Below, in pieces: positions 3,082 through 53,938 of a stretch of 53,938 nt of DNA. Source of the DNA: a virus; the IMG/VR virus record IMGVR_UViG_3300043353_000046, positions 1-53,938 of that record, one strand, 5' to 3'. The translations under genes were made by a program, and so were the position numbers. The notes under the pieces are model-generated. The model did no database searches. It saw only the letters and a program-made list of their open reading frames with translations, and was not told the DNA's origin. Numbering within the stretch: the first letter of the stretch is position 1; each line of letters opens with the position of its first letter.

Positions 3082-3155
3082 CCCCTCGGACTGGAGTCGA
3101 ACCAGTATCTTCGGTCGTTGTCGAGCGGGGCTCTACCGCATTGAGCTACCGAGGG
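3082..3155 (-). tRNA. tRNA-like element with defective anticodon arm
   Basis: Read on the minus strand, this has a perfect 7-bp acceptor stem (CCCTCGG with CCGAGGG), TA at positions 8-9, a D arm GCTC/GAGC with a GG-containing 9-base loop, and a perfect 5-bp T stem (ACTGG/CCAGT) around TTCGACT. The anticodon arm does not fold properly: CCGCT against GACCG pairs at only three of five positions, and the base before the would-be anticodon (ACA) is G rather than T. No CCA is encoded. It is either a decayed phage tRNA or a tRNA-shaped processing signal. It lies just upstream of the leftward accessory operon. Confidence 0.55.
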
Positions 3156-3225: not shown

Positions 3226-3720
3226 ATGCCCGGAGCACGTCCCAGCAAGTTCACCAAAGACCCAGATTCCCCAGCGACCCCCAAGGACCCCAAGGCTCCC
3301 ACCCGCGTATTCAAGCGCATGGGTCCGGTCAGCGAGGTCGAGGTGGGGTTCATCCGCCAGTTCCTGCAGGACCAGCCGAGGGAGATTACGCCGGCCCAGA
3401 CGACCGCACTCTCGAAAGTGATGCGTCGCTCGAAGGAGGTCGTGAAGGACATCATCGAGCAAGCCCGAGAGGAATTTCAGGGCTCAGCGCTCGACTACGT
3501 CCGCATCCACAAGGAGTCGACCATCTCCGCCTTCGAACGCGGGGACAACGAGGTCGCTATCAAGAGTGCCCAATGGGCTATCGCGAATATGAGCCAAGAG
3601 GGGACTCGGGTGGTCGAGAAGGTGGCTGCTGAAGGTGGCGGCGGAGTCAAAATCATGATTGGTGTCCAGATGGGTGGGATTGATAAGCCCAAGGGACCCG
3701 TAGTCACGGAAATCAAGTAA
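3226..3720 (+). CDS. terS: Putative terminase small subunit
   Basis: A 164-residue protein directly upstream of the large terminase gene and overlapping it by one base (taATG), the usual position for TerS. It would bind the packaging site and regulate the motor. The N-terminus is basic and Pro-rich (starting MPGARPSKFTKDP). Residues 35-120 are helical with repeated charged patterns, and the C-terminus is a short strand region. The assignment rests on position and size more than on a sequence motif. The N-terminal GARPSKF resembles the starts of three replication genes in this genome. Confidence 0.65.
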   Translation: MPGARPSKFTKDPDSPATPKDPKAPTRVFKRMGPVSEVEVGFIRQFLQDQPREITPAQTTALSKVMRRSKEVVKDIIEQAREEFQGSALDYVRIHKESTISAFERGDNEVAIKSAQWAIANMSQEGTRVVEKVAAEGGGGVKIMIGVQMGGIDKPKGPVVTEIK

Positions 3721-5543
3721 TGCCGTTCCAGAAGGGGCATAAACTCTCTCCCAAGAGACGTAAACCTCTCGACCCCCCAGTCCTCCCACCGGAACCTGCC
3801 ATAGAGGCGGGGGCGGTGGTCCTCCCACAGGGGGTAGTCTTAACTACCCCTGGGAACGGACCCCTCCCCCCTGGCACATCAAATCAGTCAAATCATTCAG
3901 CAAATAGTGCTGAAAATGGGTCTGAGGGGGTATCAGAAAATTCAGGAGGGGTCCCCCTGACAGAATTGCCCTTGGTTGCACAGAACGGCTTCCATCCGTG
4001 CAGCAAATGTACGAAGCGGAGAGCCAAAGCCGGTCTGCCACCGAACATTTGCTATGACTGCGACCTCTGTAGTGAGTGTTTTGCGGTCTCAGTCGTAGTT
4101 ACCAGCGAGGACGGCAAGCGCCGGGCGCCCTATACGCCCCAGCCGCACCAAATAGCGGCCCACGCGTGTGACGCACCCAACCTGCTCTGTCTGGGCACAC
4201 GGGGTACCGGCAAATCAAAGTGGCTGCGGTGGGACGCCATCATCCGCTGCATGATGATTCCCAACTTCCGGGCGCTCATCATCCGCAGGACCATGCCCGA
4301 GCTGCGGAAGTCCCACCTCTCGATGATTGAGTTCGAGATGAAGCAGCTGGGCGGGACCTTCCTGAAGACGACCTTCCAGGCTGTGTTTCCGAATGGCAGC
4401 ACCATCACCTTCGCGCACTGTGAGACCGAAGCGGACATTCTGAACTTCCTGTCGAGCGAGTACGGGTTCATCGGCTTTGACGAGCTGTCGACGTTCACGC
4501 TGAATCAGTTCCTGCAGATAAGTGCCGCAGCCCGAGCGCCAGAGGGTGAGGGCTATGACGCGGTCGTGCGCTGCGGGTCAAATCCGCTGGGTATTGGCTC
4601 GCTGTGGATGAAAGCGTGGTTCGTCGACCATCAGGTGAGGTTCGAGGACTACCCGGACTACCTGCCTGATGAGTTCGTCATGCAGTTCAGCACACTCGAC
4701 GACAACGAGTATCTGGACAAGAAGAAGTACGAGAGCCGGCTGAAGAATCTCCCCGACCATGTGCGGCGGGCGTGGTTGAAAGGCGAGTTCGTCTCTGAGG
4801 GCACGTACTTCGAGGACTTCTTCCCGACCATGCTGGTGGGTGAGACTGACGAAGAGGAAGTTGAACTCCCGTGGCATGTCATCGACGACGTCCCCCGCTG
4901 GCAGGGGATGCCTATTTTCGAACTGAGCTGGCTGTCCATCTACCGCGCCATCGACTGGGGCTACAGCCCAGACCCAGCGGTCTGCTTGTGGATTGCGGTG
5001 CTGCCGAACAAGTCAGCCATCGTGTTCAAGGAGATGACCTGGAAGAAGACGCTCGCAGAGGTGGTCGCCCGAGACATCAAGAAAGCCAGCGAGGGCATGC
5101 GGATTGTCGAGACCTTCGCGGACAAAACCATGTTCATCGAGACGGGGGCGGCGCAATACACGATTGCCGACAAGTTCGAGTCGAATGGGGTGCCACTGAC
5201 GCCCATGCTCAATGACCGCGAGATGTTTGGATATTCCATCAACGAGTTCCTGACTGAGAAGGTCGACTGGGGCATGGAGGACAAGCATATCTATCGACCG
5301 AAGCTCCAGATTGTGAAGGCTGAGGGCAAGACCCGCTATGGGTGCAAGGAACTCCTCCGCACCCTCCCGCACCAACAGCGTGACAAGCTGAACCCGGCGA
5401 AACTCGCAGACGGTGAGGACCACTGGACGGTGGCGCTCGCCTACTTCTGCATGGGTATGGCGCCCGCGAGCAAACCATCCGCTGAGACCGAAGTGAAGCC
5501 GTGGATGCGACCGAAGCAGCGACGACGGAACCTCGCAGCATAA
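3720..5543 (+). CDS. terL: Terminase large subunit
   Basis: A 607-residue packaging motor. The ATPase domain has a Walker A at 159-166 (GTRGTGKS) and a Walker B at 251-255 (IGFDE). The C-terminal RNase H-like nuclease begins at AIDWGYSPDP (Asp412) and ends with the DGEDHWTVALAY acidic motif near 575. The N-terminus is unusual: about 90 low-complexity Pro/Gly/Ser/Asn residues are followed by a six-Cys cluster (Cys94, 97, 111, 114, 117, 120) that looks like a zinc-binding module. The protein cuts concatemeric DNA and pumps it into proheads through the portal encoded next. Confidence 0.95.
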   Translation: MPFQKGHKLSPKRRKPLDPPVLPPEPAIEAGAVVLPQGVVLTTPGNGPLPPGTSNQSNHSANSAENGSEGVSENSGGVPLTELPLVAQNGFHPCSKCTKRRAKAGLPPNICYDCDLCSECFAVSVVVTSEDGKRRAPYTPQPHQIAAHACDAPNLLCLGTRGTGKSKWLRWDAIIRCMMIPNFRALIIRRTMPELRKSHLSMIEFEMKQLGGTFLKTTFQAVFPNGSTITFAHCETEADILNFLSSEYGFIGFDELSTFTLNQFLQISAAARAPEGEGYDAVVRCGSNPLGIGSLWMKAWFVDHQVRFEDYPDYLPDEFVMQFSTLDDNEYLDKKKYESRLKNLPDHVRRAWLKGEFVSEGTYFEDFFPTMLVGETDEEEVELPWHVIDDVPRWQGMPIFELSWLSIYRAIDWGYSPDPAVCLWIAVLPNKSAIVFKEMTWKKTLAEVVARDIKKASEGMRIVETFADKTMFIETGAAQYTIADKFESNGVPLTPMLNDREMFGYSINEFLTEKVDWGMEDKHIYRPKLQIVKAEGKTRYGCKELLRTLPHQQRDKLNPAKLADGEDHWTVALAYFCMGMAPASKPSAETEVKPWMRPKQRRRNLAA

Positions 5544-5595: not shown

Positions 5596-7773
5596 ATGGC
5601 AAACGAACTTGCAGCGGCGGGCGAGGTAGGCGAGGCAGAGGACGCAGGCACGGAGTCTGCAGCCGCAACCACAGCGCCAGAAGCGGGCGCGGTAGACGAC
5701 AAGGCCATCTCTGACCAACTCATGGCCGAGGTGCTGGCCTGGGAGAAAGTCCGCAAGCAGAAATCGGTCGACTGGAAGATTAACGTCGAACGCCGGCTGG
5801 GCACACCGGGCGCAAATGTCTATACCGGCGGGCTCGCGGTCGACGCGACCAGCGCGGATGGTCAGTCGACCATCAACCCGGACTGGTATCTCACCAAGAC
5901 CAAGACCGCCAACCTGTTCAGTATCGTGCCCGAAGTGCAGCTCACCCCTGCGCAAGAGAAGTATGGCCCGGCCATCTACCCCTTTCAGAAAGCCCTCAAC
6001 TTCGAGCTGAGTGACAAGCGAGCCGACATCGGGGTACCAGTGGATGAGGTGCTGAATGACGTCGTCAATGCGTCAGGCATTGGCGCGGTCATGGTGGGGT
6101 ACACGGCACGCTTCGAAACCACCAAGGTAGCGGTCGAGGAGTCGATTACCGCCCCGAGCGGAGCGACAGCGGCGACCAAGGACATGACGCTGGAGCAGCT
6201 GCAGCAGCTCGAAGCGGCTGGACTGGTTCACCTGAAGGACGCGCAGAAAGTCATCAGCTACAAATTCTTCATCAACAGGATTTCGCCGATTCATCTGCTC
6301 GTGCCGGCTGGGTTCACCGGCTCGCTGTATGACAACGCCGACTGGGTGGGGTTCGAGGGCGAATACTCGTGGGCGGATGCGCAAGCGAATCTCAAGCTGA
6401 CCGAGGCGCAGAGGTCTCAGGTGCTCGGGAACAACACCCCAGAGACCAGCAGCCAGTCGCTGAGGGGCGCGCAGGACCAGCAAGCCGCGAACACGACCCC
6501 CGTGGTCCGCTACAAGGAACTCTACTACTGGCGGGCGCGTCAGAACGCCAATGAGCTGAACCTACAGGCCATCTGGAAGGTCGTGTTTGTGGCTGGGCTT
6601 ACCGAGCCGGTCATTCACGAAGCCTGGAAGGGCCAGCAGACCGACCCGATGACCCACAAGATGGTCGGATGCACCAAATTCCCGGTGCGGGTGCTGACGC
6701 TCACGTACATCACGGACAATGCGGTCCCGCCGTCAGATAGTCAGGCCGGCAGACCGCAGGTTGATGACATGAGGCGTTCGCGTGGCCAGATGTTCATGAA
6801 CCGGGAGCGCTCGATTCCGATTCGCTGGTTTGACGTGAACCGCATCGACACCACAGTTGCAGACACTCTCATGCGCGGCACTTGGCAGGGGATGATTCCG
6901 ACCAACGGAGACGGCGCGCGCTCCATCGGGGAGATTGCGCGAGCGTCGTATCCCGCTGAGGACATGAGCTTCGACCGCAAGGCGGAAGAAGACCTGCGGG
7001 CGACGTGGCAGATTGGTCCGAACCAAGGCGGCACAGCAGCCTCGGGCGACCAAACAGCAGCAGCAGCAAACATCACGCAGCAAGGCTTCCAGACCGTGAT
7101 GGGCCAGGAGCAGAACAAGGTGCGAAGGTTCTTCCTCAGCATCGTGGAAGTGCTCGCCGGCTGGATGGCCCTCTACTCGGACTTCCCGTCACTCGCGGAC
7201 GACGAACGTCAGGCGATGATGCAAGCGTGGGACGACAAACAGGTCCTCCATGACTTGGTGTTCAAGATTCGGCCGGGCTCGCAGATTGTGCAGAGTGCGG
7301 AGGACCGCATCAAGCAGCTGTCGTCCACACTGAATCTGACGGTGCAGAGTGGGTTCGTGAATCCCGAACCGCTCATCATCGAGATTATGGAGCTGTCGAA
7401 CCTGGACCCGCAGAAGGTCATGGTCAAGCCGACACCGAAGAATCCCGACCTGCCGAATCTGAGCTTCCGGTTTACGGGCAAGGACGACATGCAGAACAGT
7501 GCCGTGGTGGCGCTGTTAGCCAAGGCCGGTCTGCTCCCAAGTCTCGATGAGGTCAAGAAGGCCCAGGAGTTCCTGCTGGCGGCCTCTCAACCTCCTGCTC
7601 CTGCCCAGCCGGGTATGTCGGCTGACGCGGCTCCTGCCGGTGCTCCTGACGGTGTTCCTCCCACTCCAGGGGCGCCGGCCAATGGAGTGAGCGTGACGCC
7701 ACAGGGTGGGTTGAGCGCGCACCCGGACTGGCATCTGACGGACAAGGTGGCAAAGCGCGGACGCGATATCTAA
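5596..7773 (+). CDS. Portal protein
   Basis: A 725-residue protein immediately after terL and before the scaffold/capsid genes, the expected place and size for the portal of a podovirus-like phage. It has an Ala/Glu-rich N-terminus, a long helical and strand core (for example DWKINVERRLG near residue 55), a central stem-like helical region, and a C-terminal Pro/Ala-rich tail from about residue 655. The portal forms the dodecameric DNA channel, docks the terminase and nucleates head assembly. No catalytic residues are expected. Confidence comes from context and length. Confidence 0.85.
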   Translation: MANELAAAGEVGEAEDAGTESAAATTAPEAGAVDDKAISDQLMAEVLAWEKVRKQKSVDWKINVERRLGTPGANVYTGGLAVDATSADGQSTINPDWYLTKTKTANLFSIVPEVQLTPAQEKYGPAIYPFQKALNFELSDKRADIGVPVDEVLNDVVNASGIGAVMVGYTARFETTKVAVEESITAPSGATAATKDMTLEQLQQLEAAGLVHLKDAQKVISYKFFINRISPIHLLVPAGFTGSLYDNADWVGFEGEYSWADAQANLKLTEAQRSQVLGNNTPETSSQSLRGAQDQQAANTTPVVRYKELYYWRARQNANELNLQAIWKVVFVAGLTEPVIHEAWKGQQTDPMTHKMVGCTKFPVRVLTLTYITDNAVPPSDSQAGRPQVDDMRRSRGQMFMNRERSIPIRWFDVNRIDTTVADTLMRGTWQGMIPTNGDGARSIGEIARASYPAEDMSFDRKAEEDLRATWQIGPNQGGTAASGDQTAAAANITQQGFQTVMGQEQNKVRRFFLSIVEVLAGWMALYSDFPSLADDERQAMMQAWDDKQVLHDLVFKIRPGSQIVQSAEDRIKQLSSTLNLTVQSGFVNPEPLIIEIMELSNLDPQKVMVKPTPKNPDLPNLSFRFTGKDDMQNSAVVALLAKAGLLPSLDEVKKAQEFLLAASQPPAPAQPGMSADAAPAGAPDGVPPTPGAPANGVSVTPQGGLSAHPDWHLTDKVAKRGRDI

Positions 7774-13836: not shown

Positions 13837-14385
13837 ATGAGTGAAGATTCGACTCCCGGCGCAGCCATCACGATGTCAGGTGCGGAACTGGGGAAGGCGA
13901 TTGCCGAAGGCATTGCCGGCGCCACACCCCGCAAGGTCACGTTTGGTGAGTTCGCTCGCCGGCCCGACCCCATCTACCATCCGCTCGGCAAACAGGGTCC
14001 GCAGATGAAGCGGCCGTACTTCCAGAACGGCGTGAAGTTGGAGTACGCGAGCACGCACGACAAGGAAATCGCGCTCCTCAATCGCATCACCCACTCGGGC
14101 CGGTATATCGACCGGCTGGTGGAGGTGGTGGTCGCGCAGGACGGGGCTGACGACACCATCGATATCCGGTTCAGCAACAAGACCCCGGACATGCAGATTG
14201 AGCTGAAAGGCCACTGCCGGAACTTCCTCGACATGCTCCAGCAGATTGTCGACGCGCAGGAGATGGAGGACCTCGAAGAGGAGGAGCGGAAGTCCACCAG
14301 CAAGCCGGGTCGGGTGAGCGTGCCGAAGCAGTTTGGCAACAGCAAAGCGACCCAGGCCGCGTACGACGCAGCGAACAGCAAGTAA
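13837..14385 (+). CDS. Hypothetical protein, head-tail module
   Basis: A 182-residue soluble protein. The frame is open from 13732, but the upstream part is unlike coding sequence here, and the ATG at 13837 follows an AGGAGA site, though at a long spacing. Residues 30-145 contain conserved-looking segments (RKVTFGEFARR, HSGRYIDRLVEVVV), and the C-terminus is acidic then basic. It lies in the block between the virion surface genes and the tail adaptor, and its function is unknown. Confidence 0.6.
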   Translation: MSEDSTPGAAITMSGAELGKAIAEGIAGATPRKVTFGEFARRPDPIYHPLGKQGPQMKRPYFQNGVKLEYASTHDKEIALLNRITHSGRYIDRLVEVVVAQDGADDTIDIRFSNKTPDMQIELKGHCRNFLDMLQQIVDAQEMEDLEEEERKSTSKPGRVSVPKQFGNSKATQAAYDAANSK

Positions 14386-14396
14386 GGAGTCAGCCG

Positions 14397-14666
14397 ATGC
14401 CTCTCATGCAAGGGTCGAGTAGCGGGACAGTGGGCGAGAACGTGAAAACGCTCATGCGTGAGGGGCGTCCGCAAGACCAGTCTGTGGCGATTGCGCTCAA
14501 GACGGCAGGCAAGAGTAAGCCGGGGATGAAGAAGAAGCCGCTGGCGCTCAAGCGAGTGCCGAAGGTCAAGCTGGCGCCCGCTGCCGCGCCTCAGCTCCGA
14601 GATGCAGCACAGATGAACGCGGCCTCACCGCTGGTGAAGACGCTGATGTCGCGGAAGGATGTGTAG
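14397..14666 (+). CDS. Small basic phage protein (DUF6496-like)
   Basis: An 89-residue Lys-rich protein. Its N-terminus, GSSSGTVGENVKTLMREG followed by a QSVAIAL segment, matches the short helical motif found in many small phage proteins annotated as DUF6496-like. The role is unknown; a basic DNA- or head-associated protein is plausible. The next gene begins with a related motif, so the two look like tandem paralogues. Confidence 0.65.
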   Translation: MPLMQGSSSGTVGENVKTLMREGRPQDQSVAIALKTAGKSKPGMKKKPLALKRVPKVKLAPAAAPQLRDAAQMNAASPLVKTLMSRKDV

Positions 14667-14667
14667 G

Positions 14668-15018
14668 GTGTTGAAAGGCAACTCGAAAGGCATCATGGGC
14701 GAGAACGTGCGCGAGGCCAAGAAGAAGGGGCTGAGTGAACGGGACGCGGTGCTCGTGAGCATGAAGAACAGCAAGAAGGACAAGAAGTCCTCGAACATCG
14801 CGGAGTCGTCGTCGCACGGGGACTATCCGTATAGCTCGCGTCTCGACCTCGACCACGAGATGCTGGAGAAGCTGGGCATCGACAAGATGCCGAAGCACGG
14901 GGCGCCGGTCACCATCCACGCCAAGGGCAAGGTGCATCGGACCTCTGAGGACACGAACAGCGACGGCAAGACGCGGCGGAGCATGACCGTGCAGATGACC
15001 CACATGAAGGTGAAGTGA
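14668..15018 (+). CDS. Paralogue of the preceding small basic protein
   Basis: A 116-residue protein beginning GNSKGIMGENVREAKKKG shortly after its start, which aligns with GSSSGTVGENVKTLMREG of the upstream gene. I chose GTG 14668, with AAGGA 8 bases before it, over ATG 14659, because it gives the better alignment with the paralogue. The C-terminal half is different: a strand-rich region with HAKGKVHRTSEDTNSDGK. The function is unknown. Confidence 0.6.
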   Translation: MLKGNSKGIMGENVREAKKKGLSERDAVLVSMKNSKKDKKSSNIAESSSHGDYPYSSRLDLDHEMLEKLGIDKMPKHGAPVTIHAKGKVHRTSEDTNSDGKTRRSMTVQMTHMKVK

Positions 15019-15019
15019 G

Positions 15020-15703
15020 ATGACGTTCACGGACATCGTCAATGAAATCGCTGACCGTTGCGACCTCACCAGTGCGACAGCGCTGACCCGCATCGGCCGC
15101 GAGGTCAATGAGGCGTATCGGTGGCTGGCGAGTTCGATTGGGTTCTCGACGATTCAGTTCGTGCCGGGCGTGACCGCGTCCACGACCATCGGCAATCGCA
15201 ATCTGGTGTTTGGCGCGTCAGGCACCAAGGTCGAAAAGATTCTGTCCGTGTACAACGCGGCGTTCAACCCGCCGCAGGTGCTGGACCAGCTCACGATGGA
15301 CCAGATGCGCAATCAGATGCTCGGCACGGACCCGCCGCAGCAGTACGCGATTGAGTTGATGGGCGACCACACGGTGACGATTTACCTCGGGAGCGTGCCG
15401 GCGACGGTGTATGCGCTGACCGCTGACGTGCTGTCGAATCTCACAGACCTGTCGGGCACTCAAGTGCCGGCGTTTGCCGAGGACTACCACGACATCCTGG
15501 TCTACGGACCTCTCGGGCTTGAGTACAACCGGATGGAGAAGCCCGATATGGGGCGGATTTACAACTTCGAGGATGAGCGGAGGCCCGGACTGTTTCAGGT
15601 CCGCGCAAGCCAGCTCCGCTACTACATCGCGAAGAGTGCGTATCTGGATATTTATCAGGCGCGGACAGGTGGCATCTCGTTCCCTGTGCCGCTGGTGAGC
15701 TAA
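15020..15703 (+). CDS. Putative head-to-tail adaptor (gp11/tubular A-like)
   Basis: A 227-residue protein whose helical N-terminus (TFTDIVNEIADRC, then EVNEAYRWLA) and following beta region resemble adaptor proteins of podoviruses, which bind under the portal and receive the nozzle. The large tail gene directly downstream, in the T7-like order adaptor then nozzle, supports this. The length fits the family (about 200 residues). The assignment is by pattern and synteny. Confidence 0.7.
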   Translation: MTFTDIVNEIADRCDLTSATALTRIGREVNEAYRWLASSIGFSTIQFVPGVTASTTIGNRNLVFGASGTKVEKILSVYNAAFNPPQVLDQLTMDQMRNQMLGTDPPQQYAIELMGDHTVTIYLGSVPATVYALTADVLSNLTDLSGTQVPAFAEDYHDILVYGPLGLEYNRMEKPDMGRIYNFEDERRPGLFQVRASQLRYYIAKSAYLDIYQARTGGISFPVPLVS

Positions 15704-17965
15704 ATGCCTATGGCCGTTCCTGACATCGACGTGGAGACCATGCGCGGTGGTCTTAATGATACAGACCCCGCGAATGCGCTGAAGCCGGATGAATGCGTCC
15801 AGGCGGACAACATCGAGTTCTTCGCCTCCATGTGTGGAGAGCGGAGGGGCGGGAGTGTGTCTCTGAGCTTGACGAGCAGCGGGCTGACGGCGGAGGCGCT
15901 TATCTGCCATCTGTCGCAGTGGTTCCCGACCAACGTCCCGACGCTACCGGAATATATTGGCATCGCCGCGACTCCAGGGACCTCGGTCAGTGCTGCTCGC
16001 CGGGATACCGCTGGGACGTGGCATGTGCTGACCCCCAGCGATGCGATTGATACAGCCGCGCCCGGCATCTATGGGATTGTCACCCAGGCACTCGACGCGA
16101 ACAACTTCATCGCCTACAAGAGTGCGAACAACCGCCTGCACCTGATTACCACCGGGTCTGTCTGGCGGGTGGCGGGACTCGCTGCGCCGGCTGCACCGAC
16201 TGCGGCGGACACGGGTTCGGGGTCATTCACGGGCACCCGCTACTATCGCGTCCGCTACACCGAGGTCAGCGGCAGCACGGTGGTCCGTCGCAGTGAGCCC
16301 GGCCCGGTGCTGACGTTCGTGCCCTCGAAGACGGGAGCGGCGGCACGCGTGACGAAGCCTGCGGCTATCAGCGAAGGCGAGACCAACTGGGAACTCGAAG
16401 CGTCACTCGATAACGCCAACTGGTATCGGATTGCGTCCACGGTAGTGGGCACGACGACCTACGATGACCACGCGTCCAGCGCGAAAACCTATCCGACAGT
16501 GTCTCATGCGGCACCGACGAGCAACGATGGCACGGCTATCACTTACGTCCTCCTGAGCGACCAAGCGGCAGCGCTCAATCTCACCGGCACGGTGAGCAAT
16601 GGTATCTATGGCAACCCGGCAGGCACGATTGCCGGTCGTGGGTGGATTGGCTATACGAGCGGTGGCGTCTACATTCCGGCGTTCCCACCGACGTGGAGCG
16701 CAGGGCAGAACTGGTACGCCTCACCGGATGTCGCGGTGGCGATGGAACAAGCCAGTGTCGGTGGCGACGGGCAGGACTACGCAGCAACGGGGACGCTGTC
16801 AGAAGCGGTGGGCGCGTATCTCACCATCCCGAGTGCGAAGTTTCTGGCCGTCGATGGCGACCGACTCATTTGGGGCGGACATCAAACAGACCCGGCGTTA
16901 GCCTCGACGGTCGGCTGGACGCCCAAGAAGGGAGACCCTGGTGTTGGAAATAGTGAACGCAACCCCATTGTCACCACTGGTGGCGAAGACATCGTCTCCA
17001 CTCGTGACCTCGATAATTATGACGGCGGTCCTCTCACTGGGCTCGCCGCGTCTACGCTCGGCACATGGTACGCGTTCAAATGGCAGCGCATTTATTCTGC
17101 CGTCGAGAACCAGAACGTCACCAACGCCTATGACGTCAACTGCGTGAGTTCAACGCGGGGCGCGATTCCTGGCAGCGTCGTGAAGGCCGCGAATCCTGAC
17201 GGGTCGTCGACCATTTTCTTCCTCGACCCGAATGTGGGGCTGTGCCGGTTGGGCGTGGGCGGGGTCATCAACACCATTCGAGGCGTGCGGACCACCTGGG
17301 GGACGGTGAACGTCAAGGCGACGTCGCTGGTCTGCTGCGGCTGCTTCTATCCGTATAAGCATCAGGTCCGGTGGTGGGTGGCGACGGCGGGCTCGAATGT
17401 GCCGAACCTGGGGATTACCCTGCAGACGTCGGAGCTACAGCAACGCGGCGAGAGCGGCGAGCTGGGACGTGGGATTTCTCTCGTGACCGCTCGACAGTCT
17501 CAGGCGTTGTGTGCGGCGGCTCTGACCGTCACGGTGAACAACCAGACGACGGAGGTCCCGTTCATCGGCCAGACGAGCCCGGAGTTCGTGCAGCGGCTGG
17601 ACACGGGCGTCACCGACAACGGCACGACCTACGTGGCCACGCTCAAATCCCGGCCGTTGTTCCTCGCCGGGATGCTGAACAAGTTCGGCATCATTGCGGG
17701 GGCGCTGTTGGCGACAGCCAACGCGGCCGGGTCCATCATTCTGAGTCTCGTGCGTGATGAAGGTGGCGCAGGGCAGACGAACGTCTCGACGGTGGCGACG
17801 TCGCTGGCCCCCGTGGCGAGCGAGCCCCAAGTCATCAAGATATTTGACGGACTGGCGATGCGGGAGTTGCGTTCGCTGAACTTCATCCTGACTGACGGGG
17901 GCGCGAACACGCCCTGGGCCTGTCAGATGGTCAGTCTGAAGCCGAGTCTGGAGCAGAAGAAGTGA
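15704..17965 (+). CDS. Putative tail nozzle protein (gp12/tubular B-like)
   Basis: A 753-residue, strand-rich protein. The N-terminus has GGLNDTDPANALKPDEC, then a GERRGG segment, typical of large podoviral tail/nozzle proteins, which start with a short strand describing conditions at the tail tip and then form beta-propeller-like repeats. Its length is close to that of T7 gp12. With the adaptor upstream and a fibre-like gene downstream, it would form the tail tube end through which DNA leaves. It overlaps the next gene by 4 bases. Confidence 0.7.
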   Translation: MPMAVPDIDVETMRGGLNDTDPANALKPDECVQADNIEFFASMCGERRGGSVSLSLTSSGLTAEALICHLSQWFPTNVPTLPEYIGIAATPGTSVSAARRDTAGTWHVLTPSDAIDTAAPGIYGIVTQALDANNFIAYKSANNRLHLITTGSVWRVAGLAAPAAPTAADTGSGSFTGTRYYRVRYTEVSGSTVVRRSEPGPVLTFVPSKTGAAARVTKPAAISEGETNWELEASLDNANWYRIASTVVGTTTYDDHASSAKTYPTVSHAAPTSNDGTAITYVLLSDQAAALNLTGTVSNGIYGNPAGTIAGRGWIGYTSGGVYIPAFPPTWSAGQNWYASPDVAVAMEQASVGGDGQDYAATGTLSEAVGAYLTIPSAKFLAVDGDRLIWGGHQTDPALASTVGWTPKKGDPGVGNSERNPIVTTGGEDIVSTRDLDNYDGGPLTGLAASTLGTWYAFKWQRIYSAVENQNVTNAYDVNCVSSTRGAIPGSVVKAANPDGSSTIFFLDPNVGLCRLGVGGVINTIRGVRTTWGTVNVKATSLVCCGCFYPYKHQVRWWVATAGSNVPNLGITLQTSELQQRGESGELGRGISLVTARQSQALCAAALTVTVNNQTTEVPFIGQTSPEFVQRLDTGVTDNGTTYVATLKSRPLFLAGMLNKFGIIAGALLATANAAGSIILSLVRDEGGAGQTNVSTVATSLAPVASEPQVIKIFDGLAMRELRSLNFILTDGGANTPWACQMVSLKPSLEQKK

Positions 17966-39909: not shown

Positions 39910-40743
39910 CTACTCGCTGTCTTCCTCTTCCGCGATGGCGATGATGCCCTTCTTCGCGTTGAAGGTCCAACCCGCTTCCGTCGCCAGGAACTCGTCGGAG
40001 GTCGCCAGGATGCGAATCTCCTCACGGTTCTCGTGCTTCAGCAGCTTCTGCGTGACCTTCATGGCCAGCTTCGACTTCGCCACCTGACCGTCGTTGGCCG
40101 CGAGGACCGCGAGCACGACGTCTGTGGCTTCCTGGGTGAAGTCCGGTTCCGCCGACTTCTTGGCCTTGCCAGCGGCAGGCTTCGCGGCCGACTTTCCGGC
40201 AGCCGGCTTCGCAGCCTTGCCCGGCAGGTCGTACACGTTGGTGATGACAAGGTCCTGACGGTTGAACGTCTTGCCGTCCTTGCCCACGCGCTTGCCGAGC
40301 TTCTTGGTCAGCTCGTCGTTCGTCTTCTGCTCGAAGCGAACCCGCGTGCCGATGATGGCCTCGAAGTTGATTTCGTCCTCGGGCAGGTTCTCCTCCGGGA
40401 AGCCCGCCGCGCAGAGGCTGGCGATGAGGGTCGTGAATGCGACTCCCGCGCCCAGCTCCCGACCGTCTTCGTTCGGGGTCAACGTCAGCCCATCCTCGCT
40501 GATGGTGAAGTCGTCGAAGCCGCCCACGAACAGGGTCGTGAAGACAGTCTCTTCCGCGCCGTCGACCTTCACGCCGAGCAGGCAGTTGATGGCGTGGAAG
40601 CGGACCTTGCCCGTCTTCGGGTCTTTGGTCGCCTTGTACGCCTCACCGTTGAACTCGTCGGTGAACTCGTAGCTGACGATGACGCCGTCGACACCGTTGA
40701 GAAAACCGCCGCCCTTTTTGAAGCTTGAGGGACGCGCACCCAT
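39910..40743 (-). CDS. Putative ssDNA-binding / recombination protein
   Basis: A 277-residue protein beginning MGARPSSFKKGGGFLNG. Residues 15-170 form a strand-rich domain. Residues 172-195 are a linker of Lys/Ala/Pro repeats (AAKPAAGKSAAKPAAGK). A second domain of about 75 residues looks like a winged helix and ends in the acidic tail EEEDSE. An acidic C-tail and a place in a recombination operon with Sak4 and nuclease genes suit an SSB-like protein, but no OB-fold signature is certain. Confidence 0.55.
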   Translation of the reverse strand: MGARPSSFKKGGGFLNGVDGVIVSYEFTDEFNGEAYKATKDPKTGKVRFHAINCLLGVKVDGAEETVFTTLFVGGFDDFTISEDGLTLTPNEDGRELGAGVAFTTLIASLCAAGFPEENLPEDEINFEAIIGTRVRFEQKTNDELTKKLGKRVGKDGKTFNRQDLVITNVYDLPGKAAKPAAGKSAAKPAAGKAKKSAEPDFTQEATDVVLAVLAANDGQVAKSKLAMKVTQKLLKHENREEIRILATSDEFLATEAGWTFNAKKGIIAIAEEEDSE

Positions 40744-41067
40744 TTACACACTCTCCTGGTTGGTGGACGCTGCAGCGTCCGTTGACTGAACTGACTCGGT
40801 GACGAGACCGACGACCGGGGCGCTGGTCGCTTCAATCTCGACGAACTGGCTGGGCTGCTCGTTGATGGCAATGGCGGCATTGGCCATCTGGCAGGCGCGC
40901 TGAATGTCGGTGAACGCGAGGGACTGTTCACGCGAGGGCGGGGTGTTGTCACGGACCACCGTGGCGAAGGCGAGGGCCGCGTCACGGATGGTGACGTAGC
41001 GGGCCGCCTGCGTGCCGAAGGGCGGGTGGTAGGTGAAGATACGTTCCAGACTCGGATTCTTTGCCAC
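40744..41067 (-). CDS. Putative Acb2/Tad1-type cyclic-nucleotide sponge
   Basis: A 107-residue helical protein. The core reads RIFTYHPPFGTQAARYVTI, then a REQSLAFTDIQRACQMANAA segment ending in IAINE. This matches the small phage family with FTYHxP, an SREQSLAxT helix and a WANAAIARN-type end that I associate with Acb2/Tad1-domain proteins. These bind the cyclic di- and trinucleotides of CBASS and related defences and so block the host alarm signal. GTG 41067 (AAGG at 5 bases) gives the family-like start. The frame is open to ATG 41193, which also has a good ribosome site, so a longer form is possible. The tail of about 25 residues is Ser/Thr/Glu-rich. Confidence 0.55.
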   Translation of the reverse strand: MAKNPSLERIFTYHPPFGTQAARYVTIRDAALAFATVVRDNTPPSREQSLAFTDIQRACQMANAAIAINEQPSQFVEIEATSAPVVGLVTESVQSTDAAASTNQESV

Positions 41068-41218: not shown

Positions 41219-41863
41219 TCATGCTGTCCTCCTCTGTGGAATGGCTGTACCCATATGACCCCACTGAGCCGCCATCGCTCGGGCTATGCCTAGGAACGTG
41301 CGGCTGCGCTCGTGTGCGCGCTGGGGGCCAGGGGAGGCCAGAAACACCGACTGCTTGCGCAGGTGCTTGGGAATGAGCTTCGTGGGCACGAGCGGGGGCA
41401 ACCCCTTCAGCCACAGACAGGTCGCCTTCTGCTCGGCGTCCCCGAACTGATACGGTTGGATAATCTGTGTGTACTTGCGCCCAATCGCCGCGATGGCATA
41501 GCGATGAGGGATCGGGTTCTCGACCGCTATGAGCGGGATATGGTCGCAGTCCAGGTGCATCTTCAGGAACTTGGCGCCCTCACGCATGGCCGCCTGACGC
41601 TTCTTCCCGTACAGCACGCCCGGTGAGGGGTTGGCCGGCGTCCGATGCAGATGCTGCACCCCTGAGTTCGCCAGATATGTGCAGTCCGGGTGGGCGATGA
41701 GCAGATCCCAGTCGTCGTAGAGGATGTCGCGGATATCCCCTCGGTAGTGCTGGCCGGGAATCTCCGTGTCCCACTTCCAGTCACACGACCACGCGTCGTG
41801 CCCGAGTTTGCGGAACTCCTCACGGATGCGACCAGAGAACTCCTCGGCAATCAGCACCCTCAC
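41219..41863 (-). CDS. DNA cytosine methyltransferase-like protein
   Basis: A 214-residue protein. VLIAEEFSGRIREEFRKLGH is an AdoMet-binding motif I variant of the type common in phage cytosine-modifying proteins. It is followed by DAWSCDWKWD, GDIRDILYDDWDLLIAHPDC and TYLANSG. The Pro-Asp-Cys region resembles a PC catalytic loop, although the usual P-P/S-C order is changed. GTG 41863 overlaps the helicase stop (GTGA). It probably modifies phage DNA or pretreats host DNA. Confidence 0.75.
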   Translation of the reverse strand: MRVLIAEEFSGRIREEFRKLGHDAWSCDWKWDTEIPGQHYRGDIRDILYDDWDLLIAHPDCTYLANSGVQHLHRTPANPSPGVLYGKKRQAAMREGAKFLKMHLDCDHIPLIAVENPIPHRYAIAAIGRKYTQIIQPYQFGDAEQKATCLWLKGLPPLVPTKLIPKHLRKQSVFLASPGPQRAHERSRTFLGIARAMAAQWGHMGTAIPQRRTA

Positions 41864-43488
41864 TGGACGCGCCTTTGTAACGACGGTGTACCCCTGACGA
41901 TGCCGAGATAGGAGATGGCGCGGGTGGTCGCCACATATTCTAGGTTCTGTTCCTCCTGATTGACTCCCCGCCGATACAGCGAGTCCCACAGCAAGTAGAC
42001 CTTCTGCGCTTCCAGCCCCTTGGCCTTGTGGATGGAGCTGCAGACCACGTGGGTGGCATCAGGGTCGTCGGTGAAGAGGTGGTCGCAGTTGGCCATGACC
42101 TGCCGCATCGTGTCGGCATCTTCCATCAGCGCCCGCAGCATGTCAGCCTGGTCGCGGGTCTGATCGACTAGCTGCAGCTCGCCAAAGGAGGCATAGCGAG
42201 TGGTCATTTTGCGTTCCCAGGCGTCGATGGCGTTGAGAGCGTCCGTTACCGGCGTCCACGACTCCACCTTGCAACGCTTCAGGATGCTCAGGATGCCGGC
42301 GCCGATGTCCCGGCCTGCCATCCGTGCCCGCACCCCATTACGCAGCAGACGCAGCGTGAGGCTGACCAGCGGGGCATTCAGGCGCGAGAGGACGAAGTCG
42401 CCGGGTTTGACCAGTTGGAGCAGGTCCCCGTCCTCGACATCCTCTACGATGCCCACGGGGTTGGCTGGACCGGCCTCGAAGTCTGGCACCAGCAGGCGCG
42501 CACGCTCGACGATGGACTGGCCACAGCGGTAGGTGGTGGTCAGGGGCAGCTCCAGCGCATTGAGTTCCGTCTTCAGCCGGTCGAGCGATCCCGTGTCCGC
42601 GCCCCTGAACGCATAGATGGCCTGGCGGTCGTCCCCGACGAAGCAGAGGCGGCCGTCACACACGCGCTGGACAATCTCCAGCTGCGCCTTCGTCATGTCC
42701 TGCGCTTCATCCACCACCACGAGCTGGTAGTCCTTGGTCAGCAGGTCCCACGCGAGCGGCAGATAGATCATGTCCGCGAAGTCGATGCCCACTTCGTAGC
42801 GGGGCGGGTTCTCCTTCGCATACGCCATTGCCTCACTGGCCCACTTCACGATGTGGTCGACGGTGAACTTGGGCGCCCAGCCCTCCGAGGGTTCGAGATT
42901 AAAGAACAGCGCCAGCTTCAGCAGGGCATCGGTGGAGTAGCCGCCCTCGACGGTCGGGCACATCTCGCGCCCTTTCGTGTGCAGCAGACTCACCAGCTTC
43001 TTCATCTGGTAGGGCGTACCAATGGGCACCACCTTGTCGGTCAGGAAGTCGGCCCGCTTGCTGGTGGGCTTGGCTACCTGCAGGCCGCGCCAGTTCCGCA
43101 TGATGGCGCGCATGCCGATCCCATGCAGAGTCTTCGCTTCCGCCCGCGAGTTGGTGATCTTCTGGTTCAGCGTGTCTGCGATACCCTTGTTGAACGCACA
43201 GACGAGAATGCTTTCCTCGGGCGCTCGATTCACGCCCTCGACGATGGTGGTCGTTTTGCCCGTGCCGGCGCGAGCCCGCACGATGAGATTGGTGCGGTCC
43301 TCGTCCTCACCTATCAGGCAGGGATAGCAGGGCTTTGGGCCATACTCTGTCTCGTACTCAGCCCGGTCACCACAGATGGCACACTTACCCTCGAACCACC
43401 AGAAGATGGCCTGTTGAGCCGTCGACCAGGTGGGCGCTTTCACTTCCTCGACTTCGACCGCTTTGAAACTACTCGGCCGCGCACCCAT
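41860..43488 (-). CDS. UvrD/Rep-like superfamily 1 helicase
   Basis: A 542-residue protein. It starts MGARPSSFKAVEVEE, then has a four-Cys zinc region (CAIC...CYPC, about 37-57). The SF1A helicase motifs follow: I, RARAGTGKTTT; Ia, VCAFNKG; II, VVDEAQDM; III, FVGDDRQAIYAFRGA; IV, TTYRCGQ; V, SSIHKAKGLEA; and VI, YVATTRA. It unwinds DNA for replication or recombination. The length is shorter than UvrD, lacking large 1B/2B inserts. Confidence 0.93.
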   Translation of the reverse strand: MGARPSSFKAVEVEEVKAPTWSTAQQAIFWWFEGKCAICGDRAEYETEYGPKPCYPCLIGEDEDRTNLIVRARAGTGKTTTIVEGVNRAPEESILVCAFNKGIADTLNQKITNSRAEAKTLHGIGMRAIMRNWRGLQVAKPTSKRADFLTDKVVPIGTPYQMKKLVSLLHTKGREMCPTVEGGYSTDALLKLALFFNLEPSEGWAPKFTVDHIVKWASEAMAYAKENPPRYEVGIDFADMIYLPLAWDLLTKDYQLVVVDEAQDMTKAQLEIVQRVCDGRLCFVGDDRQAIYAFRGADTGSLDRLKTELNALELPLTTTYRCGQSIVERARLLVPDFEAGPANPVGIVEDVEDGDLLQLVKPGDFVLSRLNAPLVSLTLRLLRNGVRARMAGRDIGAGILSILKRCKVESWTPVTDALNAIDAWERKMTTRYASFGELQLVDQTRDQADMLRALMEDADTMRQVMANCDHLFTDDPDATHVVCSSIHKAKGLEAQKVYLLWDSLYRRGVNQEEQNLEYVATTRAISYLGIVRGTPSLQRRVQ

Positions 43489-43900: not shown

Positions 43901-44401
43901 TTAGTCTTGGCCGGGGGCGGGGGCCAATTGGCCATCCACGCGCACGAACTTGCGGGCCTTCAGCACCTGCAGATTGCGCTTGATGAAGCGGTCGATCCGC
44001 TGGGCCACTGCACGAGCGTGCGCCTTGGTGCCGGGCGTTGTGTCCGCGCAACTGTCGCCCGCGCCATCATTGAACACGCTGTGATAGATGCCGTCACGGC
44101 CCATGAACTCGAACGCGACATCGGGGCCAAGCAGCTTCTCGACAGCCCCAAAGACCGGCCCCGACATCGACCACTCGCGCCCCTTGGCGAGAACACCGAT
44201 CCATCCGGCGAAGCAGCCAACCGTCCCGCAGGCCGGCTTCTGGCCGCCGAAGTAGGCGTCGGGGTTAGTCGAGTCCTCGACAACGGTCCCCATGTCCACG
44301 CGTCTCGGGTCCGCCAGTACCACTCGTTTGACCGCTTGAATCAACCCCAGTGCGGTCTTGGCCCTCGATACCGGAATGACCTGCAGCTTTCTCGTCCTCA
44401 T
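43901..44401 (-). CDS. Hypothetical protein
   Basis: A 166-residue protein. The N-terminus is basic and helical, the middle has a CGTVGCFAGW segment with two Cys residues, and the C-terminal part is Arg-rich. I recognise the general type (short phage proteins with a CGTxGCxAGW motif) but not a function. ATG 44401 overlaps the upstream gene (ATGA). Confidence 0.7.
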   Translation of the reverse strand: MRTRKLQVIPVSRAKTALGLIQAVKRVVLADPRRVDMGTVVEDSTNPDAYFGGQKPACGTVGCFAGWIGVLAKGREWSMSGPVFGAVEKLLGPDVAFEFMGRDGIYHSVFNDGAGDSCADTTPGTKAHARAVAQRIDRFIKRNLQVLKARKFVRVDGQLAPAPGQD

Positions 44402-45363
44402 GCTTCTGCTCCTATCACTGACCACTTGTTGGTCTTCTTGTGTTTACTGACGATGTTCATCTTCCTGACCGTCTGATAGACCTTCATGAACTCTTTGGCG
44501 TCGAGGCCCGTGGCATCCACCCAGGTCTGCCAGCTGCAGGGCTGCTGCTGCCGCAGGATGTCCACGACTGCCTCCGCAGCACTCTGGCGCTCGACAGGGG
44601 CATTGCTGCCCTTCATCACACACGAGTCGGTGCCGGGGACCACCAGCTTCTCCAGCTCGATGTTGTCGAAGTGCTCGGCGTCCTTCTGCTTGTCGCACTC
44701 GAAGGCGACCGTCTCCCCATCCCTGGTGATCTTGATCATCGTGTCGACGCCACCACGAAACGCCGTGGCGCCACGTTCCCGACCGCCATCCAGCCGGGTG
44801 TGATGAATCACCAGCACCGTGCAGCCGAAGCGCTTGCGGAGGATGTCGATGCCCGCAATGAACTTGCCCATGTCCTCGGTCTCGTTCTCGTTGCCGTCGA
44901 AGCAGCGGGCCATCGTGTCGACGATGATCAAGCTAGGTTCGCGGCGAACCTCGTCCTCCAGCCGGCCGAGGAGGGTGACGATCTCGTCGCTGTCAGCGGA
45001 CAACGGCACGCTCTCGATGAGCCACGCGATATCCGCATCTTGGGGCTCGATCTGGTGCGTCACCAGCCAGGCCAGCGCCCGCTTGCCCAGACCAGCCCCA
45101 CCCTCAGCCCCGATGTAAACGACAAACCCCTTCTGCGTCTCCTTGCCCTGCCATGAGGTCCCGGTCGCCACCGACATCGCAATATCGATAGCGATGAAGC
45201 TCTTGTAGGTCTCTGGGGGTCCATACATGCCCACCAGCGCCCCCACCGGCATCACGGGTTCGATCAGCCAGGAGGGGGCAGGCATGTTCAGCAGTTCAAG
45301 CGTGTTGTAGAGGCGCAGTGGACCCGGCGCGGTCAGGGTGAACTGGCGCGGACGACTGCCCAC
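44398..45363 (-). CDS. RepA-like AAA_25 hexameric ATPase / helicase
   Basis: A 321-residue protein of the RSF1010 RepA/DnaB-like type. The Walker A is GPPETYKSF (about 49-57), the Walker B is SLIIVDTMARC (about 143-153), and VIHHTR and GATAFRGGVDTM are the H3/H4-type motifs. A winged helix seems to form the C-terminal 70 residues. It is likely the replicative helicase or its loader. It begins MGSRPRQFT, a variant of the shared N-terminal peptide. GTG 45363 overlaps the upstream stop (TAGTG). Confidence 0.85.
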   Translation of the reverse strand: MGSRPRQFTLTAPGPLRLYNTLELLNMPAPSWLIEPVMPVGALVGMYGPPETYKSFIAIDIAMSVATGTSWQGKETQKGFVVYIGAEGGAGLGKRALAWLVTHQIEPQDADIAWLIESVPLSADSDEIVTLLGRLEDEVRREPSLIIVDTMARCFDGNENETEDMGKFIAGIDILRKRFGCTVLVIHHTRLDGGRERGATAFRGGVDTMIKITRDGETVAFECDKQKDAEHFDNIELEKLVVPGTDSCVMKGSNAPVERQSAAEAVVDILRQQQPCSWQTWVDATGLDAKEFMKVYQTVRKMNIVSKHKKTNKWSVIGAEA

Positions 45364-53754: not shown

Positions 53755-53938
53755 CGACTGTGAGCATCATGAGTAGCGAGAGCGAACTTCGGAGTGTGGC
53801 GGATGCGATTGCCGAATGCCGGAAGCGTCTACAGGTGTCGGGCGCCCTCGACAGCGAGACTGACCGGACGTTGAACTGGGCGTCGATGCAGACGCACTAT
53901 ATCGCGCATCAGTTGAGGGGGATGTGTGAAGTGCTGGT
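53755..53938. repeat. Terminal direct repeat, right copy
   Basis: Repeats 1-184 with two mismatches (53882, 53885). It encodes the first 60 residues of the junction gene, starting at GTG 53760; the two mismatches fall in adjacent codons. Confidence 0.95.

Follow-up and report, generated by a model that had tools for sequence, protein, structure and literature searches.

A short Acb2-type hairpin protein in a phage genome, very probably a sponge for CBASS-type cyclic oligonucleotides

Sponges soak up the alarm molecules that bacteria use to trigger anti-phage suicide. Does a 107-residue protein encoded at positions 40744–41067 of the IMG/VR virus record IMGVR_UViG_3300043353_000046 belong among them, and if so, for which signal? 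The whole record of 53,938 nucleotides was analysed and is called the window below. A preliminary description, made from the sequence alone, had proposed a sponge of the Acb2/Tad1 type, and at the level of the family this proposal is supported: the protein almost certainly belongs to the known Acb2-type sponges. Very probably it forms an oligomer, probably a hexamer, that would sequester cyclic oligonucleotides of the kind used by the cyclic-oligonucleotide-based antiphage signalling system (CBASS). The computed evidence consists of a family match, a hairpin fold, conservation at ligand and interface positions and a covariation for which an oligomer is the simplest explanation. The gene and its parts are as follows.

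40744–41067, minus strand: gene of the Acb2-type hairpin, putative sponge; GTG start, 107 amino acids, stop codon included; PF24729 match and AlphaFold2 hairpin
40858–41037, minus strand: conserved hairpin core, residues 11–70, with Y13, H14, P16, Q20, Y24, R28, P43, S45-R46-E47, A51, T53 and A62-N63-A64
40747–40857, minus strand: low-confidence C-terminal tail, residues 71–107, with a predicted local distance difference test score (pLDDT) of ~63–72

The Pfam model PF24729 (Acb2/Tad1 hairpin) covers residues 12–67 with 48.4 bits (E = 1.1e-12; profile positions 1–57 of 58), well above its curated cut-off of 27 bits, so the profile search suggested in the preliminary description turned out positive. 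As controls, the proven sponges T4 Vs.4 and PaMx33 Acb2 matched the same model at 7e-20 and 2e-18, and the PDB entry "Acb2 homolog 43" at 5e-9. The two PHROG matches of the protein, 1454 and 31113, are both without assigned function, and a scan of genome contigs with the single sequence gave no match. Relatives in the PDB were recovered by profile search, the best being Acb2 homolog 43 at only E = 1e-4. This entry (9ptq, six chains) is likewise a short hairpin without loop insertion and keeps the Arg-x6-Thr pair discussed below, whereas Thr replaces Tyr at its cyclic dinucleotide site.

The AlphaFold2 model, computed from a 73-sequence alignment, consists of a short N-terminal helix (H7–10) and a two-helix hairpin (H20–40/H46–69) at high confidence, followed by the low-confidence tail. 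The predicted helical hairpin thus agrees with the earlier expectation, and the best match found by Foldseek in the PDB is an Acb2, though weakly scored: T4 Vs.4 with cyclic GMP-AMP (cGAMP; 7uq2, probability 0.84), with Acb2-cGAMP within the top eight. Against predicted viral structures (BFVD), the named top 18 matches were nearly all Acb2/Tad1 hairpin domains. Tad1 (PDB 7uav, 8smd and the 8kbb series) has the helix-2 motif SRE...ALT..EEALMW.N in common with the protein, but its N-terminal antiparallel beta-sheet domain is missing here; AlphaFold2 predicts no strand, and the first long helix begins after only 19 residues. Membership in Tad1 was rejected because this domain is absent, and the protein is regarded as a stand-alone Acb2-type hairpin, which leaves only the first half of the label Acb2/Tad1.

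Which ligand might such a hairpin hold? The register with T4 Vs.4 and PaMx33 Acb2 was taken from a MAFFT alignment and confirmed for residues 42–70 by hhalign profile comparison. According to Jenson et al. (PMC10097602), cGAMP in Vs.4 touches Y8, H11, K23, R79 and F82, which correspond to Y13, P16, R28, A64 and A67 of the window protein, and the Vs.4 hexamer is abolished by mutating L29, A66, A73 and A77, here F34, A51, A58 and A62. A change of T4 T68 (T53 here) to Met reduced binding (PMC12657230). At 21% identity, T4 Vs.4 shares the Pfam domain and fold with the window protein and is matched at Y8, K23 (Arg here), T68 and the interface alanines A66/A73/A77, whereas its D61 stands at the position of R46. 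PaMx33 Acb2 (Pseudomonas phage, p26; PDB 8h2j, 8ixz), also 21% identical and with the same Pfam domain, aligns by Y11/K26/R67/T74 with Y13/R28/R46/T53 and has, like the window protein, Ala at the position of T4 F82; it differs in extra inter-helix residues and in retaining an Arg (R85) where A64 is found here. We take R67/T74 of PaMx33 to line the site that holds cyclic trinucleotides in the three-fold channel. By this alignment, the dinucleotide pocket appears partly altered, and the putative trinucleotide pair R46/T53 and the interface alanines appear kept. Because R46/T53 look intact, and the dinucleotide pocket keeps Y13/R28 but has no equivalents of R79 and F82, we lean towards trinucleotides (cA3 type) as the preferred ligand, with dinucleotide binding that may be weaker or altered.

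A pocket altered in this way would also suit a hairpin sponge for another nucleotide-derived signal, such as gcADPR, other cyclic oligonucleotides or a Panoptes or type III CRISPR signal, in place of the classical CBASS ligands. Acb2 homologs vary in their ligand spectrum (reviewed in PMC12043709), and the Panoptes product 2',3'-c-di-AMP is among the ligands of T4 Acb2 (PMC12657218). As the window protein retains the pair that aligns with the PaMx33 trinucleotide site, we regard this alternative as improbable, and a sponge for CBASS-type signals is preferred.

Conservation was assessed in 155 non-identical hairpin domains from phage contigs, phage records, one plasmid and bacterial genomes. 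Since the search patterns required ANA-A/S-IA, conservation at positions 62–67 is partly built in by selection; relatives that came from tblastn alone also retain A62-N63-A64. The ligand-site positions are among the most conserved, with Y13 in 147 and R28 in 154 of the domains. Positions 46 and 53 are Arg/Thr in 127, are exchanged as a unit for Ala46/Arg53 in 17 and are Arg/Arg in a single one. The top covarying pair is 56/68 (z 10.9): an acidic residue at 56 accompanies Arg68 in 114 domains, Gln or Arg at 56 accompanies Ile, Leu, Val or Cys at 68 in 40, and one is an exception, so that 154 of 155 fit (phi 0.983). In two-state simulations on the best tree, none of 1000 reached the observed correlation, either for 56/68 or for 46/53, and the list of matched close pairs for 56/68 contains a single pair that does not change at both positions. 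The window protein is of the type Arg46/Thr53 with Gln56/Ile68.

Residues 56 and 68 lie on the same continuous helix, 12 residues (~18 angstrom) apart, and therefore cannot touch directly inside the monomer, which supports an oligomer. If the second helices of two subunits met in antiparallel orientation around A62 (T4 A77), the covariation would be explained. Together with the retained interface alanines, the covariation suggests an oligomer but does not speak to its size.

That the frame is a real gene follows from the profile match, the identity to its closest relative, the ratio of substitutions and their bias to third codon positions. The preliminary description had placed it exactly. The frame lies on the minus strand with a GTG start, and the motifs FTYHPP, SREQSLAFT and ANAAIAINE that the description had pointed out are all in the 107-residue product; the last of these, however, is not the end of the protein, as the poorly ordered 37-residue tail (71–107) follows. 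An in-frame ATG upstream of the GTG would lengthen the product to 149 amino acids, but the shorter form is preferred, since an ATG stands at the corresponding point in the closest relative (L002, IMG/VR contig 3300011414_000001; 76–80% amino-acid identity). In the hairpin part, the nonsynonymous and synonymous distances between the two genes are dN 0.07 and dS 0.52 (dN/dS ~0.14), pointing to purifying selection, and 19 of the 28 differences fall on third codon positions. The GTG start and the unusual residues C59, Q60 and M61 at otherwise conserved positions would fit a sponge gene that has decayed or survives as a neutral relic, but given this dN/dS, a reading frame intact in both phages and a conserved adjacency to the next gene, such a relic is most unlikely.

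Several observations weigh against a functional sponge. A single-sequence phmmer search of the PDB with the protein found no relative, and all Foldseek E-values against the PDB exceed 0.8, which can be expected of so small a helical protein. T4 R79 and F82, both cGAMP contacts, are replaced by Ala, and the tree behind the simulations, drawn from 55 columns, has weak support. Finally, 113 genes that neighbour the hairpin gene at related loci were considered. Most have no assignable family; where one can be recognised, it is most often portal, head protease, Mu F, scaffold, head morphogenesis or terminase, which are not early genes (seen at L013–L092 and L174–L231); in Gordonia phage Schomber, the hairpin gene directly follows the portal gene. 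Such a neighbourhood is odd for an early anti-defence gene and perhaps indicates a link to defences that sense capsid proteins. It would also be compatible with a head protein, structural or acting in assembly, for instance a portal-associated oligomer, that shares the fold and has no sponge function. In the window and its relative, however, the gene sits in a replication module beside a gene resembling that of single-stranded DNA-binding protein (SSB-like), and the window terminase lies away from it at 3720–5543. The position of the hairpin gene differs between phages, so that it behaves like a movable accessory gene, Y13 and R28 of the ligand site are among the most conserved positions, and the Pfam model also recognises proven Acb2 proteins; a head factor is accordingly considered very unlikely, and the sponge is retained as the explanation of the gene.

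The minus-strand replication and recombination module comprises genes for an AAA_25 ATPase, UvrD helicase, methyltransferase-like protein, the sponge, SSB-like protein, RecE-like exonuclease, Sak4-like protein, ERCC4 nuclease, methyltransferase, HNH protein and polymerase A, several of these matches being weak. Nearest to the sponge gene are the following.

39910–40743, minus strand: SSB-like protein (277 amino acids), next gene downstream, starting directly after the sponge stop codon
41219–41989, minus strand: methyltransferase-like protein, upstream neighbour; phrog_757 "DNA methyltransferase", E = 2.6e-51
41860–43488, minus strand: UvrD-type helicase of the same replication module; PF00580, E = 3e-22

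Of the two neighbours named in the preliminary description, the methyltransferase is borne out by PHROG 757; the SSB-like protein had no match among Pfam, PHROG and NCBIfam profiles, its label coming from the appearance of the sequence. The last tail codons of the sponge (CAG GAG) double as a Shine-Dalgarno-like site of the SSB-like gene, AACCAGGAGAGTGTGTAA ATG. The order is the same in L002 (hairpin at 86–376 plus stop, SSB-like from 382), with the Shine-Dalgarno-like site again overlapping the last sponge codons. Because of the adjacent start and the overlapping site in both phages, the two genes are probably translated together. Further takeover proteins had been expected in the operon, but no second recognisable anti-defence gene was present among the neighbouring genes scanned, and PADLOC on the genes scanned around the sponge gave nothing beyond methyltransferase-type matches. 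Around the gene, predicted sigma-70 promoters and terminators were no more numerous than in shuffled sequence, and expression timing is therefore unreadable from them.

For the mode of action we infer early timing, cyclic-nucleotide binding, the identity of the ligand and a hexameric stoichiometry as follows. The short stand-alone protein would fold into a helical hairpin, and several copies, most likely six, would join in a homo-oligomer. Made alongside the replication proteins and coupled to the SSB-like gene, the oligomer would trap cyclic di- and/or trinucleotides from host CBASS or related systems, so that the effectors would lack their activator during phage replication.

Some records contain more than one hairpin, with two above the cut-off and one weak in Schomber and two in G025. 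Those of Schomber (W01), at 5727, 8595 and 11621, are clustered near the portal gene. A 2H-phosphoesterase domain weakly similar to the anti-CBASS nuclease Acb1 adjoins the hairpin in Schomber (L008, 2974–4177) and in G022 (14297–16626). A general "anti-CBASS cassette" of an Acb1-like nuclease beside the hairpin was rejected, as the arrangement occurs in only 2 of 50 records, these two, both below the Acb1 cut-off. Relatives in phage records are labelled "hypothetical protein" or, in several Paenibacillus and Brevibacillus phage records (e.g. KT361655, KT151955), "phosphomannomutase", apparently a propagated misannotation.

Elsewhere in the window, a 184-base direct terminal repeat (1–184 and 53755–53938, 99% identical) makes the contig probably a complete genome. 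A tRNA-Cys with the unusual anticodon ACA was found by ARAGORN at 3082–3155 (minus strand), and the large protein at 5596–7770 had no relative in phage records. The same N-terminal tag, (M/MP)G[A/S]RPxxF, is carried by four otherwise unrelated proteins.

3226–3720, plus strand: possible small terminase
39910–40743, minus strand: SSB-like protein
41860–43488, minus strand: UvrD helicase
44398–45363, minus strand: AAA_25 ATPase

Synonymous codon differences separate the four tags, three of which also occur in the relative G001; in stretches of three other phages, the tag was found on the SSB-like protein only. The shared tag is possibly a docking or localisation motif.

The family itself is already known, and what goes beyond annotation is that residue pairs switch together and that the short form is abundant. 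We tentatively suggest, as a doubtful generalisation, that short FTYHPP...ANAAIA hairpins may form a large sponge branch across many phage groups, specialised on cyclic trinucleotides, with a channel of one of two interchangeable types, Arg46/Thr53 or Ala46/Arg53, and an interface that is likewise of two types, acidic 56/Arg68 or Gln or Arg 56/hydrophobic 68. If so, ligand class and assembly type would be predictable from sequence by these types, and the co-switching pairs offer testable rules for variants of the oligomer and of the ligand site. Naming the relatives as sponges would flag many phages as probable CBASS evaders. As the Panoptes system is set off by sponges (PMC12657218), phages that carry them are also possible Panoptes triggers.
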